A stretch of 26,913 nucleotides of DNA from a virus. The stretch spans positions 1 through 26,913 of the IMG/VR virus record IMGVR_UViG_3300008448_000509. One strand, written 5' to 3'. A program made the position numbers and the translations under genes. Below are positions 3,057 to 16,937 of the stretch, piece by piece. Every line of letters starts with the position of its first letter. The first letter of the stretch is position 1. Under the pieces are notes generated by a model. That model had not been told where the DNA came from and made no database searches. It was given only the letters and a program-made list of their open reading frames with translations.

Positions 3057-3207
3057 GGATTTACATAAGCAGAGAAAGTCAAGGGTTCGTCAAGAAGCTC
3101 TCGATGGTGGTTATTATGATGGTCGCTTTCGAACCAAAACGATACCAAATAAAAAACACAAAGACGGTAAATATAAAAAACGGTTTGACCCTTTTAACGA
3201 GGATTAG
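3028..3207 (+). CDS. Tiny basic protein with ALDGGYYDGRFRTK motif
   Basis: 59 residues, rich in Lys and Arg, beginning MSGRFNILNKDLHKQRKSR and ending KKRFDPFNED. The central VRQEALDGGYYDGRFRTKTI segment looks conserved-family-like, and I recall similar DGGxYDGRxR segments in short Bacteroidota phage proteins. It overlaps the 3' end of the preceding gene by 29 nt. Its TAG stop (3205-3207) overlaps the stop of the converging minus-strand gene by 4 nt. This frame is preferred over another open frame at 3104-3343, which runs deep into the minus-strand gene. Function unknown; nucleic-acid binding is plausible from charge. Confidence 0.72.
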   Translation: MSGRFNILNKDLHKQRKSRVRQEALDGGYYDGRFRTKTIPNKKHKDGKYKKRFDPFNED

Positions 3208-3776
3208 CGATACAAGGTTATTGTTCCATATTCAAGATCCTCGTGACCAAAAACATCTACATACCTTATTAAATAAACATAAACTCCATCTGGTGAGAGA
3301 GCGCCATTATAGGTGCCATCCCAGTCTTCATTTATATTGGTAGATGTATATGCAATGCTACCCCATCTGGTGTAGATTTGTATTTCATATTTCTCTATGT
3401 TAGTGCCTTTTACCACAAACTTATCGTTAAGGTAATCCTTGTTTGGTGTAAAGGAAGAAGGCACAAACAAGGCTGGTATTCTACAAGGAATAACTAATAT
3501 AGTGTAAGTTTCTGTGTTAGACTCACAAAGTGGATTTTCTATTTGAGCCTTGAGAGTGTATGTTCCTGGTTTATCAAAGTTTACGTTTATAGTCTCGGTT
3601 TCAAAAGAGTTAAGTAATTTACTTTCCTTATATAGTTTCCATGTATAGCTGCATCCCGGAGTTCCTATAGCCGTATAGTTAAAGTAGGTTTTATTTCCAT
3701 CACACAGTTCTATTGTTTGATCTTGTGCTTGAACCTTAAGGTGCAAGAAAACACACAATAATATTAGCCACCTCAT
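3204..3776 (-). CDS. Secreted protein with PKD-like domain and type IX secretion (type B, CHU_C) sorting domain
   Basis: 190 residues. A signal peptide (MRWLILLCVFLHLKVQAQ) gives Sec export. Residues about 20-97 form a PKD/Ig-like beta domain (YTWKLYKES, FDKPGTYTLKAQIEN). Residues about 100-190 match the gliding-motility-associated C-terminal domain used by the type IX secretion system: FVPSSFTPNKDYLNDKF, then YTRWGS, WDGTYNG, DGVYVYLIRY and GTITLYR at the very end. In Bacteroidota this domain sends proteins through the outer membrane to the surface. It is short for the family, whose members are often hundreds to thousands of residues long. It is the last gene of a minus-strand operon, one base after the upstream stop. 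Carriage in a phage structural region is unusual. Domain identity is secure; role is inference. Confidence 0.9.
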   Translation of the reverse strand: MRWLILLCVFLHLKVQAQDQTIELCDGNKTYFNYTAIGTPGCSYTWKLYKESKLLNSFETETINVNFDKPGTYTLKAQIENPLCESNTETYTILVIPCRIPALFVPSSFTPNKDYLNDKFVVKGTNIEKYEIQIYTRWGSIAYTSTNINEDWDGTYNGALSPDGVYVYLIRYVDVFGHEDLEYGTITLYR

Positions 3777-3777
3777 G

Positions 3778-4344
3778 TTAGTTATGTTCTATTGGTAATA
3801 ACACCGGTTGAGGAAGCACATTAACAGATGTTACCTCAGTGAAAACACAACCTGCGTTAGTATATGTATATGTTAAATTAAAAGTGCCTGGACCACTATT
3901 AGTTGGACAAAACTCATTGTTAACTGCATCAACACCTGACCCACTCCAAGTTCCTCCTGCTGGTATTGCTGATAATGCTACGCAGTTAGAGCTTTCACAC
4001 ACATCTACTAAGGATATTAGAGTAGGATCTACGTTATATACAAAGACATCTAATGATACTAAAGGACTTACACAACCTATGCTGTTTATAGCTTGTACTT
4101 GTATTGCATTAATAATTAAGCCTGGATTTGCTCCTGACCAATCTACTTGTATTTGATTTGTGTTTTGGCCACTTACTAATATACCTGGTGGTATAACTGT
4201 CCATGAGTATGTTAATCCTAAGGTCTGTGTTACATTATATATAGATCCGTTTGTTTGGTAACATACCGTATCTGGGTTTATAGTTGTGAATTGTGCAAGT
4301 ACTAAACTTGGTAGTAATGTTAGAAATAATAGTAGTTTTTTCAT
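3778..4344 (-). CDS. Secreted PKD/Ig-like repeat protein
   Basis: 188 residues from the ATG at 4344. This start is chosen because it gives a clean signal peptide (MKKLLLFLTLLPSLVLAQ) and lies 2 nt after the stop of the upstream peptide gene; an in-frame ATG 21 nt earlier would add a non-signal extension. The mature part has two beta-sandwich modules. The first (YSWTVIPPGILVSG...IQVDW) is PKD-like. The second (CVALSAIPAGGTWSGSGV...GPGTFNLTYTYTNAGC) matches a repeat common in Bacteroidota surface adhesins. No type IX sorting domain is present, so the protein may stay periplasmic or rely on the downstream partner. It ends IEHN and its stop is one base before the next ATG. Confidence 0.85.
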   Translation of the reverse strand: MKKLLLFLTLLPSLVLAQFTTINPDTVCYQTNGSIYNVTQTLGLTYSWTVIPPGILVSGQNTNQIQVDWSGANPGLIINAIQVQAINSIGCVSPLVSLDVFVYNVDPTLISLVDVCESSNCVALSAIPAGGTWSGSGVDAVNNEFCPTNSGPGTFNLTYTYTNAGCVFTEVTSVNVLPQPVLLPIEHN

Positions 4345-4346
4345 AG

Positions 4347-4460
4347 TTAAAAATGTTTGTTCCAATATTTTGGTGGTATTGTTTTTATTTGATCTCGTAG
4401 ACTTTTTAGATACTTTAGAAGTTTCTTTTTTAATTTTTTGTTTTTGCTTTTTTTAGACAT
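4347..4460 (-). CDS. 37-residue lysine-rich peptide in the secreted-protein operon
   Basis: The ATG at 4460 overlaps the upstream stop (TAATG), and the TAA at 4347-4349 lies 2 nt before the next gene's ATG, so the small frame fits exactly between two genes as part of a coupled operon. The product is very basic: MSKKSKNKKLKKKLLKYLKS at the start, PPKYWNKHF at the end. It has no signal peptide. Function is unknown. The exact fit is the main support; A-rich sequence could give Lys-rich frames by chance. Confidence 0.55.
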   Translation of the reverse strand: MSKKSKNKKLKKKLLKYLKSLRDQIKTIPPKYWNKHF

Positions 4461-5047
4461 TAGTTGTGATTTATGCTTGTTATACTTGGTAGTGTTATAT
4501 TTATGGTACCATTATAAATTGTAAATGGGTTTGTTGGACAAGAGTTATTAATCCAATTACCCCAATCTCCATCTGCACCTGCTGTTACTTGTATGAGTAG
4601 ATTCTGCGGTATACAAACATTTACAACTGTTACATGAAAACAAAATGACCAAATACATGAACCTGAATCACCCCAATCATCTGCTGGGTTACCATTTAAT
4701 GGACCATTGATACCTGAGTCAAAAAACCAACCAGGACCAATCATCCCTGCAGGTGTGAAATTGTTAGCTATCCAAACCCAGTTACCGCTGCCGCCTTGAC
4801 AATTAGTTGGTGGTCCAACTTGTTGTAGATTAGTCCAGCCTGGGCCTAAGTTTATGTCGAAACCCTCTAGCCAATTTGAACCAACATTTAATCCAGGCCA
4901 ACCATTCATTGTGTAACATACGGTTACCGTAGTACCTGGGTTATATCCTAAAGCTGGAGGAGGAGGGTTTAATGTAAATGATTGTGTACCAACACATTGA
5001 GCTTGTACCAGCGTACTAAGCATTAAAAAAAAGATAAGTAACCTCAT
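4460..5047 (-). CDS. Secreted glycine/tryptophan-rich beta protein
   Basis: 195 residues with a signal peptide (MRLLIFFLMLSTLVQAQ). The mature part is rich in Gly, Trp, Asn and Cys, with motifs VTVCYTMNGWPGLNVGSNWL, WLEGFDINLGPGW, GPGWFFDSG, DDWGDSGSCIWSFCF and TAGADGDWGNW. I recall this pattern as a module inside large gliding-motility-type Bacteroidota surface proteins, usually fused to repeats and a type IX sorting domain; here it stands alone. First gene of the minus-strand operon: TATTTATT (complement of 5051-5058) lies 3 nt ahead of its ATG. Its end (INHN, TAATG) resembles the end of the next secreted gene. Surface or periplasmic location is likely; function unknown. Confidence 0.82.
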   Translation of the reverse strand: MRLLIFFLMLSTLVQAQCVGTQSFTLNPPPPALGYNPGTTVTVCYTMNGWPGLNVGSNWLEGFDINLGPGWTNLQQVGPPTNCQGGSGNWVWIANNFTPAGMIGPGWFFDSGINGPLNGNPADDWGDSGSCIWSFCFHVTVVNVCIPQNLLIQVTAGADGDWGNWINNSCPTNPFTIYNGTINITLPSITSINHN

Positions 5048-5050
5048 GTT

Positions 5051-5058
5051 AATAAATA
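5051..5058 (-). promoter_or_regulatory. TATTTATT motif, candidate promoter of minus-strand operon
   Basis: On the minus strand this reads TATTTATT (7 of 8 match to the recurrent motif), ending 3 nt before the ATG at 5047. It is weaker evidence than the exact plus-strand copies. Confidence 0.35.
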
Positions 5059-5130: not shown

Positions 5131-5304
5131 ATGAAAACAAAAACCATTTTAAAAACAATTCTAATGAGCACTGTGTTGCTAGCAGCTGCTTGTTCTATTA
5201 ACTCAAACTCTGGAGAGGTTGCTAAAGACACTTTGTCAACCGACACTAACGTAGTTGAACTTGTTCCGGATACAATTACTATAGACAGTGTTGTAGCTGA
5301 GTAG
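5131..5304 (+). CDS. Small lipoprotein
   Basis: 57 residues. The N-terminus MKTKTILKTILMSTVLLAAACS is a lipoprotein signal: a basic start, a hydrophobic core and a lipobox (LAAAC, Cys21 becoming lipidated). The mature 37 residues are acidic and Thr/Val-rich (DTLSTDTNVVELVPDTITID). It is divergent from the secreted-protein operon, with its own candidate promoter, and a strong terminator lies 25 nt after its stop, so it is an independent unit. Small phage lipoproteins often act in superinfection exclusion or envelope modification; that role is inferred here. Confidence 0.82.
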   Translation: MKTKTILKTILMSTVLLAAACSINSNSGEVAKDTLSTDTNVVELVPDTITIDSVVAE

Positions 5305-14179: not shown

Positions 14180-14620
14180 ATGAAAGCATCACAATTTGCA
14201 AGCATACTAAGAAAGCTTATACACGAAGAAGTTAGATTGGCTGTAAAAGAAGAACTAAAGCCAATCAAAGCCATGTTAGCAGAGGGTAGAAAACCAGTAA
14301 AACAAAGTACCCCACAAAGACCATCAACTCCAAAAAGAAGTAATCCTTTAGTGAGCTTTGATGGACCTATCAGTCAAATTTTAAACGAGACTGCTCAAAG
14401 CATGATTAACCAACAAGAAGAGTGGCCAGACATGAACAACGGCACTTTTACAGCTGAACATGCTCAAAATTTTGGAGGTAGTAGCCTCATGAGCATGTTA
14501 GATTCCACTCCAGAAGATCTTCCAGCAATGGGCTATGGTGCTGATCCAACAGCAGCTTTTATTAAAGATTACTCAGCGGTCATGAAGGCTGCTGATCAAC
14601 ATGCTAGTGGTAGATTTTAA
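14180..14620 (+). CDS. Small virion-block protein with IHEE-type N-terminal helix
   Basis: 146 residues. It starts MKASQFASILRKLIHEEVRL, an amphipathic helix similar in layout to that of the protein at 371 and also containing an I-x-E triplet (I14-H15-E16). A Pro/Ser/Lys linker (QSTPQRPSTPKRSN) leads to an acidic Met-rich C-terminus (EEWPDMNNGTFTAEHAQNFG, SLMSMLDSTPEDLPAMGYG). I recall similar short proteins in marine T4-like phages near baseplate genes. Function unknown; an adaptor or head/tail cargo is possible. Its stop overlaps the gp25 start by one base. Confidence 0.7.
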   Translation: MKASQFASILRKLIHEEVRLAVKEELKPIKAMLAEGRKPVKQSTPQRPSTPKRSNPLVSFDGPISQILNETAQSMINQQEEWPDMNNGTFTAEHAQNFGGSSLMSMLDSTPEDLPAMGYGADPTAAFIKDYSAVMKAADQHASGRF

Positions 14621-15042
14621 TGGCCTACGAGATAAGAATAAACCCTATAGATTTAGAACCTGATGTAGCTGTTGGCATAGATTTACCTATGATAAAAGGT
14701 GGTGCAGTATTTAAACTAAATTACACCACACTTGATCAAGCACTAGCTAATGCAAAAAATCTACTCCTAACAAACAAAGGAGAAAGAATAATGCAACCAG
14801 AGTTTGGATGTGATCTGAGAAGATCCTTGTTTGAGAATATAGGGGATGAGCTTTCCTCAGCAATTGAGAATACCATACAAAGCAATTTTCAATTTTGGCT
14901 TCCTTACATATTTATAAACAAGTTAGAAGTAACTTCAGATTTGGATAATAATGTGGTTAACATATCAATGGTAATAAGTCTAGTAGCCAACAGGTTTGAC
15001 ACCAGATCAATCCAAATACAATTAACTAATACAACATCATAA
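14620..15042 (+). CDS. gp25-like baseplate wedge subunit
   Basis: 140 residues, close to T4 gp25 (132). It carries the GPW/gp25 family signature: KNLLLTNKGERIMQPEFGCD followed by LRRSLFENIGDEL, then a beta-rich end (NIDMVISLVANRF-like, here VVNISMVISLVANRFDTRSI). gp25 joins wedge proteins and starts sheath polymerisation at the baseplate. Overlaps the preceding gene by one base (TAATG), with gp6 starting 2 nt after its stop, the usual gp25-gp6 pairing. Confidence 0.92.
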   Translation: MAYEIRINPIDLEPDVAVGIDLPMIKGGAVFKLNYTTLDQALANAKNLLLTNKGERIMQPEFGCDLRRSLFENIGDELSSAIENTIQSNFQFWLPYIFINKLEVTSDLDNNVVNISMVISLVANRFDTRSIQIQLTNTTS

Positions 15043-15044
15043 TA

Positions 15045-16937
15045 ATGGCGACTGTATCAAAGGCAGCTACAAAGGATATAAAGTATTTAGGCAGAGATTT
15101 CAACACTCTCAAAGAGGGGTTAGTTGAGTTTGCCAAAGTTTACTATCCTAATACGTATAATGATTTTAACGAGGCCTCACCAGGCATGATGTTTGTTGAA
15201 ATGGCTGCTTATGTTGGTGATGTCCTAAATTACTATATTGACTCACAATTTAAAGAGTCTTTATTGATGCACGCTACAGAGCGTAGAAGTTTGTTGTCTA
15301 TGGCTGCGGCACTAGGATATAAACCAAAGATTAGCGTTCCGGCGACAGTAGAGTTGGACGTTTTTCAGCTTTTACCTCCTTCTGGGAGTGGTGCAAATGT
15401 AACTCCAGATTTAAGATATGCTTTAAAAATAGAGCCTGGAATGCGTTGTAGAAGCACTACTGATGCTGTAGAGTTTTTAGTACAAGATAAGATAGATTTT
15501 AGCATTAACGACACTTACAATCCAACACAGATTAGTGTTTATAGCATTGATGCAAACGGAGCTCCAAACTACTTTTTGGCTAGAAAAACGGTGCAAGCAA
15601 TCTCAGCTCAACCAAAAACAATTACAATACCTATAGGAACAGCTCAAAAATATTTTAAGTATTTACTTGAAGACACATCCATTATAGGAATAGATAAAAT
15701 TATTGATTCTGATGACAATACTTGGTATGAAGTACCATACTTGGCTCAGGACACTATCTTTGAGCAAGTTGAAAACACAAGTCTCAATGACCCAGATGCA
15801 GCTGTATATAGTGCTGAAACACCTTATCTACTCAAGCTGAGAAAAGTCCCTCGTAGATTTATTACTCGTGTTGTTGAAAGAGGGATGGAGATTCAATTTG
15901 GAGCCGGGGTCAGCTCATCACCAGATGAAGAGTTAATTGCACTGCCTGAAAATATTGGCCTAGCTTTACCAACAGGAAAGTTGGATTTAGATGCTTCTAT
16001 AGATCCACAAGCTCCAGTATTCACTCAAGCTTATGGTATTGCACCATCTAATACAACTTTGACAGTTACTTATCTTGTAGGAGGTGGTGTGACATCAAAC
16101 GTACCAAGCAATACAATTAGTGAAATTGTTGGGGTTGATATTAACACAGATAATTTTCCAAACACAAACGGAGTATTGTCTAGTACCATTGCCAACTCTA
16201 TTGCTGTGAACAATCGTTTTGCTGCCAGTGGTGGAAAAAGTGAAGAAACCTTAGAAGAAATAAGACAAAACACTTTAGCTCAGTTTACATCCCAGAACAG
16301 AGCTGTTACAAGAGAGGATTATATTGTAAGAGCTTATGCGATGCCAAATATTTATGGTAGTGTAGCTAAGGTGTTTATAACCCCAGACGAACAAGGAAAC
16401 TTAGGTAGTTCTGAGGCTAATGATGCCATAGCTAATCCACTTGCAATGAACATGTATGTTTTAGGATACAATAATAGCAAACAATTAACTACAGTTAATA
16501 AGGCTGTTAAGGAAAATCTTAAAACTTATATTTCTCAATATAAAATGCTAACCGACAGTATTAATATAAGAGATGGTTACATTATAAATATAGGTATTGA
16601 TGTTGACATAATACCACTGCCAAATTTTAATGCAAACGAAGTGTTGTTGAATTGCATAGCTGAGTTGAAAGCTTTTTTTAATATTGATAGATGGCAGATG
16701 AATGAACCAATTGTTTATGGTGACATATATAACATTCTACTTAAAGTTAGTGGTGTACAAACTATCACAGGAGTTGGCATTAAAAACTTAAACGATTCTA
16801 ATGCAGGCTACAGTGATATTTTTTACGATATTAAAGCTTCGACAAAAAACAACATTTTATATCCAAGTTTAGATCCATCTATATTTGAAGTGAGATATCC
16901 TAACAACGATATAAAAGTACGCATAACATCTTTTTAG
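15045..16937 (+). CDS. gp6-like baseplate wedge subunit (baseplate J-like)
   Basis: 630 residues, against about 660 in T4 gp6. The N-terminal block is typical: IKYLGRDFNTLKEGLVEFAK, YYPNTYNDFNEASPGMMFVE, MAAYVGDVLNYYIDSQFKES and the ERRSLLSMAAALGYKP helix. The middle holds EIRQNTLAQFTSQNRAVTRE and DYIVRAYAMPNIYGSVAKVF, the J-like core shared by baseplate wedge proteins of contractile tails. The C-terminal DRWQMNEPIVYGDIYNILLK segment is also typical. It forms the ring that ties the baseplate wedges together. Immediately downstream of gp25 by 2 nt and 1 nt before the next gene. Confidence 0.94.
   Translation: MATVSKAATKDIKYLGRDFNTLKEGLVEFAKVYYPNTYNDFNEASPGMMFVEMAAYVGDVLNYYIDSQFKESLLMHATERRSLLSMAAALGYKPKISVPATVELDVFQLLPPSGSGANVTPDLRYALKIEPGMRCRSTTDAVEFLVQDKIDFSINDTYNPTQISVYSIDANGAPNYFLARKTVQAISAQPKTITIPIGTAQKYFKYLLEDTSIIGIDKIIDSDDNTWYEVPYLAQDTIFEQVENTSLNDPDAAVYSAETPYLLKLRKVPRRFITRVVERGMEIQFGAGVSSSPDEELIALPENIGLALPTGKLDLDASIDPQAPVFTQAYGIAPSNTTLTVTYLVGGGVTSNVPSNTISEIVGVDINTDNFPNTNGVLSSTIANSIAVNNRFAASGGKSEETLEEIRQNTLAQFTSQNRAVTREDYIVRAYAMPNIYGSVAKVFITPDEQGNLGSSEANDAIANPLAMNMYVLGYNNSKQLTTVNKAVKENLKTYISQYKMLTDSINIRDGYIINIGIDVDIIPLPNFNANEVLLNCIAELKAFFNIDRWQMNEPIVYGDIYNILLKVSGVQTITGVGIKNLNDSNAGYSDIFYDIKASTKNNILYPSLDPSIFEVRYPNNDIKVRITSF

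Follow-up and report, generated by a model that had tools for sequence, protein, structure and literature searches.

The window analysed here, a virus record of 26,913 bases taken whole, carries a phage gene cassette encoding three putatively secreted proteins, A, B and C, and we lean towards the view that these proteins form a tripartite, phage-made complex on the surface of the infected cell. Profile matches support C as phage-borne type B cargo of the type IX secretion system (T9SS). A and B are without sequence relation to each other, yet both end in I-x-H-[N/Y/F/D]-COOH. A bolder reading, which we put at somewhat less than even odds, is that this tail is an undescribed trans-acting tag, with which phages may hang interchangeable proteins that have no T9SS domain on a separate, minimal protein that has one, so that the host system would export or display cargo that it does not recognise.

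Baseplate wedge genes at 14620-15042 and 15045-16937 mark the window as coming from a contractile-tailed phage. Its apparent genes lie on the plus strand throughout, apart from one minus-strand block at 3204-5047 that is transcribed in the order A, a 37-aa basic peptide, B and C (Table 1). The start of the peptide overlaps the stop of A by 1 nt, and the gaps that follow are 2 nt and then 1 nt. The first-pass annotation had described a sole minus-strand block of three signal-peptide proteins and a tiny basic peptide, tightly coupled; the open reading frames and the 1-2 nt spacings agree with this description, the signal peptides being predicted. An ATG start yields the 188 residues of B and makes the TTG start at 4365 in the ORF list unnecessary. 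Divergent from the cassette, a small lipoprotein-like gene (57 aa, LLAAACS) occupies positions 5131-5304 of the window, and similar genes adjoin or lie near the cassette in two other loci, L002 and L028.

Table 1. Coordinates of the cassette and its parts in the window.
Feature	Position	Strand	Basis
Gene A, 195-aa putatively secreted payload: predicted signal peptide, W/G-rich Ig-like beta-sandwich, tail SINHN	4460..5047	-	ORF, relatives and model
C-terminal tail of A, I-N-H-N	4463..4474	-	Conservation among A proteins
37-aa basic peptide ending IPPKYWNKHF	4347..4460	-	ORF and relatives
Gene B, 188-aa putatively secreted adaptor: two predicted Ig-like domains, tail PIEHN	3778..4344	-	PKD_6, viral loci and model
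PKD_6 domain of B	4069..4284	-	Residues 20-91 of the frame starting at 4341
C-terminal tail of B, I-E-H-N	3781..3792	-	Conservation among B proteins
Gene C, 190-aa putatively secreted anchor: PKD-like domain and type B T9SS C-terminal domain	3204..3776	-	Profile matches, 31-row alignment A7
Type B T9SS sorting domain (CHU_C / TIGR04131) of C	3210..3464	-	PF13585 over 3258-3464, TIGR04131
Promoter-like motif TATTTATT, directly upstream of A	5051..5058	-	TATTTATA-type motif

The cassette recurs widely in phages, as emerged from the survey that the first-pass annotation had proposed. Scans of IMG/VR returned 35 loci with A and 64 viral loci with B; C could not be scanned for in the same way, its alignment A7 being too divergent. 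After duplicate removal, the cassette is found in 55 distinct viral loci, 34 of them with A, B and C complete, and A has 44 distinct stand-alone relatives. The gene order is A-B-C, replaced in one clade by B-C-A, and the location varies: in one clade the cassette comes directly behind the genes for tail sheath and tube, whereas elsewhere it stands among replication-type genes. L001, a separate contig belonging to a different record, repeats A, the peptide and B of the window together with its plus-strand phage neighbours. These matching junctions, together with the 55 distinct phage loci, rule out host DNA misjoined to the phage contig, and the block is native phage DNA. None of the 50,697 INPHARED records shows the split cassette, which leaves it without a host known from culture; the matches there were two uncultured huge phages (635 and 642 kb) and one fecal fragment. 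At L003:8676-8800, and identically in the contigs L004 and L005, the signal peptide and the mature part of B lie in different frames, reflecting a pseudogene, an assembly error or slippage.

The upstream regions of these loci, 1007 in all, contain a TATTTATA motif 129 times in the forward and 36 times in the reverse orientation, and this motif is a probable phage promoter element. The T4 late promoter TATAAATA was considered and rejected, the strand-biased motif being TATTTATA instead. In the window, TATTTATA-type motifs at 350, 1192, 2784, 5096, 5366, 8710, 14159 and 22733 lie shortly upstream of the plus-strand genes at 371, 1203, 2799, 5131, 5387, 8731, 14180 and 22750. TATTTATA is at most a possible mark of late transcription, because small non-structural genes are also preceded by it.

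All 133 full-length relatives (44 of A, 43 of B and 46 of C) begin with a hydrophobic N-terminus followed by Q, the residue expected after the signal peptide under the Bacteroidetes Q-rule (PMC5837995), and by this heuristic A, B and C appear to carry Sec signal peptides. The first-pass annotation had assigned a CHU_C / gliding-motility C-terminal domain to the product of 3204-3776, and two profiles recover it above their cut-offs: PF13585 (CHU_C; 7.1e-17, 61.7 bits, cut-off 27) over residues 105-173 and TIGR04131 (52.7 bits, cut-off 35) over residues 105-189. The type A profile TIGR04183 reaches 16.2 bits, under its cut-off of 23. PKD domains, also sought on the annotation's suggestion, are present in B (PKD_6, 36.4 bits, cut-off 25) and fall below threshold in C (21.4 bits, cut-off 23.5). 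A has no Pfam or NCBIfam match, no significant PHROG match and no sequence relative in the PDB up to E = 1; the 37-aa peptide matched no family in Pfam, NCBIfam or PHROG searches, and SprB repeats (PF13573) gave no match in A, B or C. Neither A nor B matches PF13585, PF18962, TIGR04131 or TIGR04183 up to E = 1. With the T9SS domain confined to C, no route across the outer membrane is recognised for A or B by themselves. Of the proposal that the phage sends its own proteins through the host's type IX system, the supported part is that C is phage-borne type B cargo; as stated for A and B, the proposal is not supported.

Nearly all A proteins (42 of 43) and B proteins (46 of 47) have I at -4 and H at -2, with N, Y, F or D as the last residue, and in a 40-row alignment of A with a mean column identity of 47%, I192 and H194 are among just 19 invariant columns. 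The codons are mixed (ATA, ATT or ATC for I, and CAT or CAC for H), indicating that the constraint acts at the protein level. The final residues of A and B in one phage match in kind (N,N in 17; Y,F in 9; Y,Y in 2; F,F in 2). Shared descent accounts in part for both the tail conservation and this matching of end residues.

Where A is missing beside B, the gene upstream codes for an unrelated secreted protein that bears this tail too. In L058 this alternative payload has 490 aa, contains SprB repeats and ends LTPINHN; payloads of about 382 aa end PGIISHD in L065 and L071-L073 and LTRIWHD in L133. A 383-aa relative in L131 ends NEIEHD and is separate from B and C. In one phage (L063/L064 with L131/L132) about 35 kb separate the tailed 383-aa protein from these two genes, showing that tight linkage is not always kept. 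Among the other ORFs of the loci, 13 of 1034 fit a loose tail pattern, 5 of the 13 being alternative tailed payloads. Near the tailed protein, secreted proteins of about 760 aa are also encoded (L131:6818-9100, L133:8129-10399), the one in L131 being a subtilase (PF00082, 110 bits).

We searched host genomes for the tail with strict DNA patterns, which cover part of the tail variants only and which hit A and B when run on the phage loci. They gave 3 matches in 296 Bacteroidota genomes, none ending a real secreted ORF, and 47 matches in 148 Bacteroidota genomes, 30 of which were examined with no convincing secreted protein among them. Of those 30, 28 lay in frames with fewer than 75 codons from the last stop, most with fewer than 20; the longest host frames with a tail match had 151 and 74 codons, both without a signal peptide. 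We rejected the tail as a common host motif, since no secreted protein with it was found in the genomes tested, and dropped its reading as an intein-like HN end, there being no further intein feature.

Joint action of A, B and C is suggested above all by the existence of fused relatives. A-x-C forms a single 505-aa chain in L009 and L030, B-C a single chain in L076 (820 aa) and in the huge phage LR745206 (732 aa), and A-like...C one chain of 1670 aa in LR756502. The L076 junction reads PVISSIQNDLGNLTSEFIELC at the point at which the split B ends PVLSPIQHN, so that the tail occupies the place of the linker to the next module. In this testable sense the first-pass annotation was right to see a host adhesin split into separately exported parts, and by sequence comparison the cassette parts are adhesin modules. 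It had also described A and B as carrying modules usual in giant Bacteroidota adhesins, which holds for B, whereas A is not a common host adhesin module. B-like modules occur in 77 of 395 sampled Bacteroidota genomes, within open frames of about 470-5126 aa among the matches listed. A scan of 84,980 species genomes found A in 2 bacterial loci only (L017 and L018), as the N-terminal domain of roughly 1470-aa CHU_C proteins, and A was present in 2 of the 395 phylum genomes, one being L018's own. The split form was seen in phages only and not in the host genomes scanned (84,980 species; 395 Bacteroidota). As a whole, the earlier interpretation is partly supported, and it is extended by the shared tail, the interchangeable payloads and the breadth of the family. 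In the two Bacteroidota MAGs, L017:3145-10389 and L018:3080-10377 each hold two adjacent giant CHU_C genes, the first similar to the N-terminus of the 732-aa LR745206 protein and the second containing the A domain. That some host CHU_C proteins are small as well counts against the surface complex proposed here, though the example in L141 (181 aa) stands beside a PorP/SprF-like gene and is without a tailed partner.

The model of A (pLDDT 84) is an Ig-like sandwich whose closest structural matches are Ig-like domains of adhesins and pilins (Z up to 9.3, about 125 residues, rmsd 3.1-3.2), and Foldseek returned no match to this model at E <= 0.001. B is modelled as two Ig-like domains (pLDDT 90), both of them covered in alignments with GhpA fragments (Z 7.1-7.3, 154 residues, rmsd 4.5-4.7), middling Z values being common; its second domain also aligns with Ig-like domains of phage capsid proteins (Z 8-9, about 70 residues). 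The predicted Ig-like folds of A and B are common and show no function, and other fold relatives may exist. The likeness of B to modules inside SprB/CHU_C giant adhesins and to GhpA of Aureispira comes with a difference of architecture, in that the host proteins are one giant chain whereas the cassette makes three short ones; unlike an SprB-type gliding adhesin, A, B and C have neither SprB repeats nor giant size. The predicted fold of A is likewise nearest to Ig-like domains of the kind found in Gram-positive sortase-assembled pilins and adhesins, to which a short C-terminal motif offers an analogy. The cassette has no LPXTG-type motif, however, and the likeness does not extend to covalent linkage.

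Where dS was estimable, dN/dS is about 0.1-0.35 over all parts, with 0.11-0.27 for A and 0.10-0.27 for the 37-aa peptide; purifying selection acts on every part, the peptide included. Four versions of the peptide are 62-97% identical to that of the window and a fifth occurs in L020, and most cassettes are without it. Of 141 pairs compared, 99% show less identity in C than in B. When the window is set against L002, the mature proteins A, B and C are 98%, 97% and 51% identical (dS 0.18, 0.11 and 1.28), and L002 is otherwise alignable to the window by blastn in three short stretches only, at 71-81%. We read these sequence differences as payload and adaptor having been exchanged between phages that keep their own anchor.

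The anchor is perhaps matched to the host's shuttle, as C is the fastest-evolving part, a pattern that tuning to different host shuttles would produce. Type B cargoes depend on PorP/SprF-like shuttles, frequently encoded nearby (PMC12618676; PMC9143113); SprB and PG1035 bind such proteins (PMC9143113), and type B C-terminal domains direct cargo to gliding or static surface sites (PMC12618676). PorP/SprF (PF11751) was absent from 13 phage records and was found in 4 bacterial genomes as a positive control, suggesting that C should depend on a host shuttle. The missing nearby shuttle leaves type B membership of C possible because some type B cargoes are known to be orphans, served by a shared shuttle encoded at a distance (PMC12618676).

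In the surface complex that we favour, A, B and C would cross the inner membrane by Sec. C, with one PKD-like domain and a type B T9SS domain, would be a minimal anchor, exported by the host SprA translocon and a host PorP/SprF shuttle and held on the outer surface. The payload exposed on the outside would be A, with B as an adaptor linking it to the anchor. The tail would dock A to B and likewise B to C, the three together being the equivalent of one adhesin, and A and B would either leave the cell along with C or be captured on it. Production of the complex probably falls within infection, since the genes of this contractile-tailed phage share a promoter-like motif with its other genes. The benefit that we favour would be a masked or altered surface, to which further phages would not adsorb and on whose debris progeny would not be lost. 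General phage biology is the basis for such receptor masking, and even as the favoured use of the complex we hold it to be less likely than not.

The same complex could instead serve adhesion, infected cells or debris sticking to cells or particles, or gliding being altered, in ways that help the phage to reach new hosts. This alternative competes with masking and not with the complex itself, and we regard it as possible though on the unlikely side: the predicted resemblance of A to Ig-like domains of bacterial adhesins and pilins (Z about 9) and of B to grappling-hook stretches of GhpA points towards it, as does the payload with SprB repeats in L058, but such common folds are no proof of function and the evidence fits masking equally. 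A different account of the tail dispenses with mutual binding. If a host factor (translocon, shuttle or sortase-like enzyme) recognised it as a minimal signal for export or attachment, the three proteins would be exported side by side, which would explain why unrelated proteins, including the 383-aa one far from B and C, bear the same tail, and why it sits at the extreme C-terminus, where T9SS signals act. We consider this unlikely. The 148 to 296 Bacteroidota genomes searched yielded no secreted protein with the strict tail, which would leave a host receptor for it without any known ligand from the host itself, and both the conserved linkage to C and the existence of fused relatives speak for a joint complex. 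Apart from these readings, A and B could also stay periplasmic or use another export route.

That the Ig-like proteins decorate the capsid or tail of the virion is very improbable, even with one clade's cassette directly after the tail sheath and tube genes and with the modelled likeness of the second domain of B to capsid protein domains: the predicted signal peptides of all three would take them away from the site of virion assembly, the cytoplasm; C bears a T9SS domain; and adjacency to tail genes is not general. We give practically no weight to the block as misjoined host DNA or a passive passenger. B and C do have modules typical of Bacteroidota adhesins, but the junctions shared with L001, the number of distinct phage loci, the purifying selection and the shared promoter-like motif all speak against it, as does the finding of the split form in phages and not in the host genomes scanned.

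With type B T9SS cargo such as SprB of Flavobacterium johnsoniae and PG1035 of Porphyromonas gingivalis (PMC9143113, PMC12618676), C has in common a signal peptide, a type B C-terminal domain, an Ig/PKD-like passenger and predicted surface anchoring. It differs from them in being phage-borne and minimal, at 190 aa, with no cognate PorP/SprF found and with separate tailed partners that have no T9SS domain. Our literature search for phage T9SS cargo found Cryophage alone, with variable type A cargo; Bellas et al. 2020 (PMC7468147), who described it, proposed that the T9SS-domain products hijack the host system and may play a part in competition or superinfection. Both phage systems encode T9SS-domain products, but Cryophage has three variable genes (an endoglucanase, a glycoside hydrolase and a PA14 protein) with type A domains (PMC7468147), whereas the cassette is conserved and multi-gene, with a type B anchor and tailed partners. 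What is new relative to Cryophage is that several proteins make up a conserved cassette, that its anchor is of type B and that it is widespread among uncultured phages of Bacteroidota.

Some cassettes include an extra secreted protein of 402-414 aa (L006:2063-3307, L019:1868-3088, L020:8550-9758), which in L006 and L020 has a PKD domain and a type A T9SS domain above the NCBIfam cut-off, indicating that some phages combine both cargo types. Other phage proteins, of 108-116 aa, consist of a signal peptide and a type B T9SS domain only (L131:4430-4765, L135:5509-5859, L137:4892-5218), two of them in huge phages. Together with the minimal anchor C, these small proteins would be natural probes of how type B domains choose their shuttle. 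The tail, in turn, offers a simple test of whether the T9SS carries partners in trans, and of whether phages remodel the surface of the cell that they infect.
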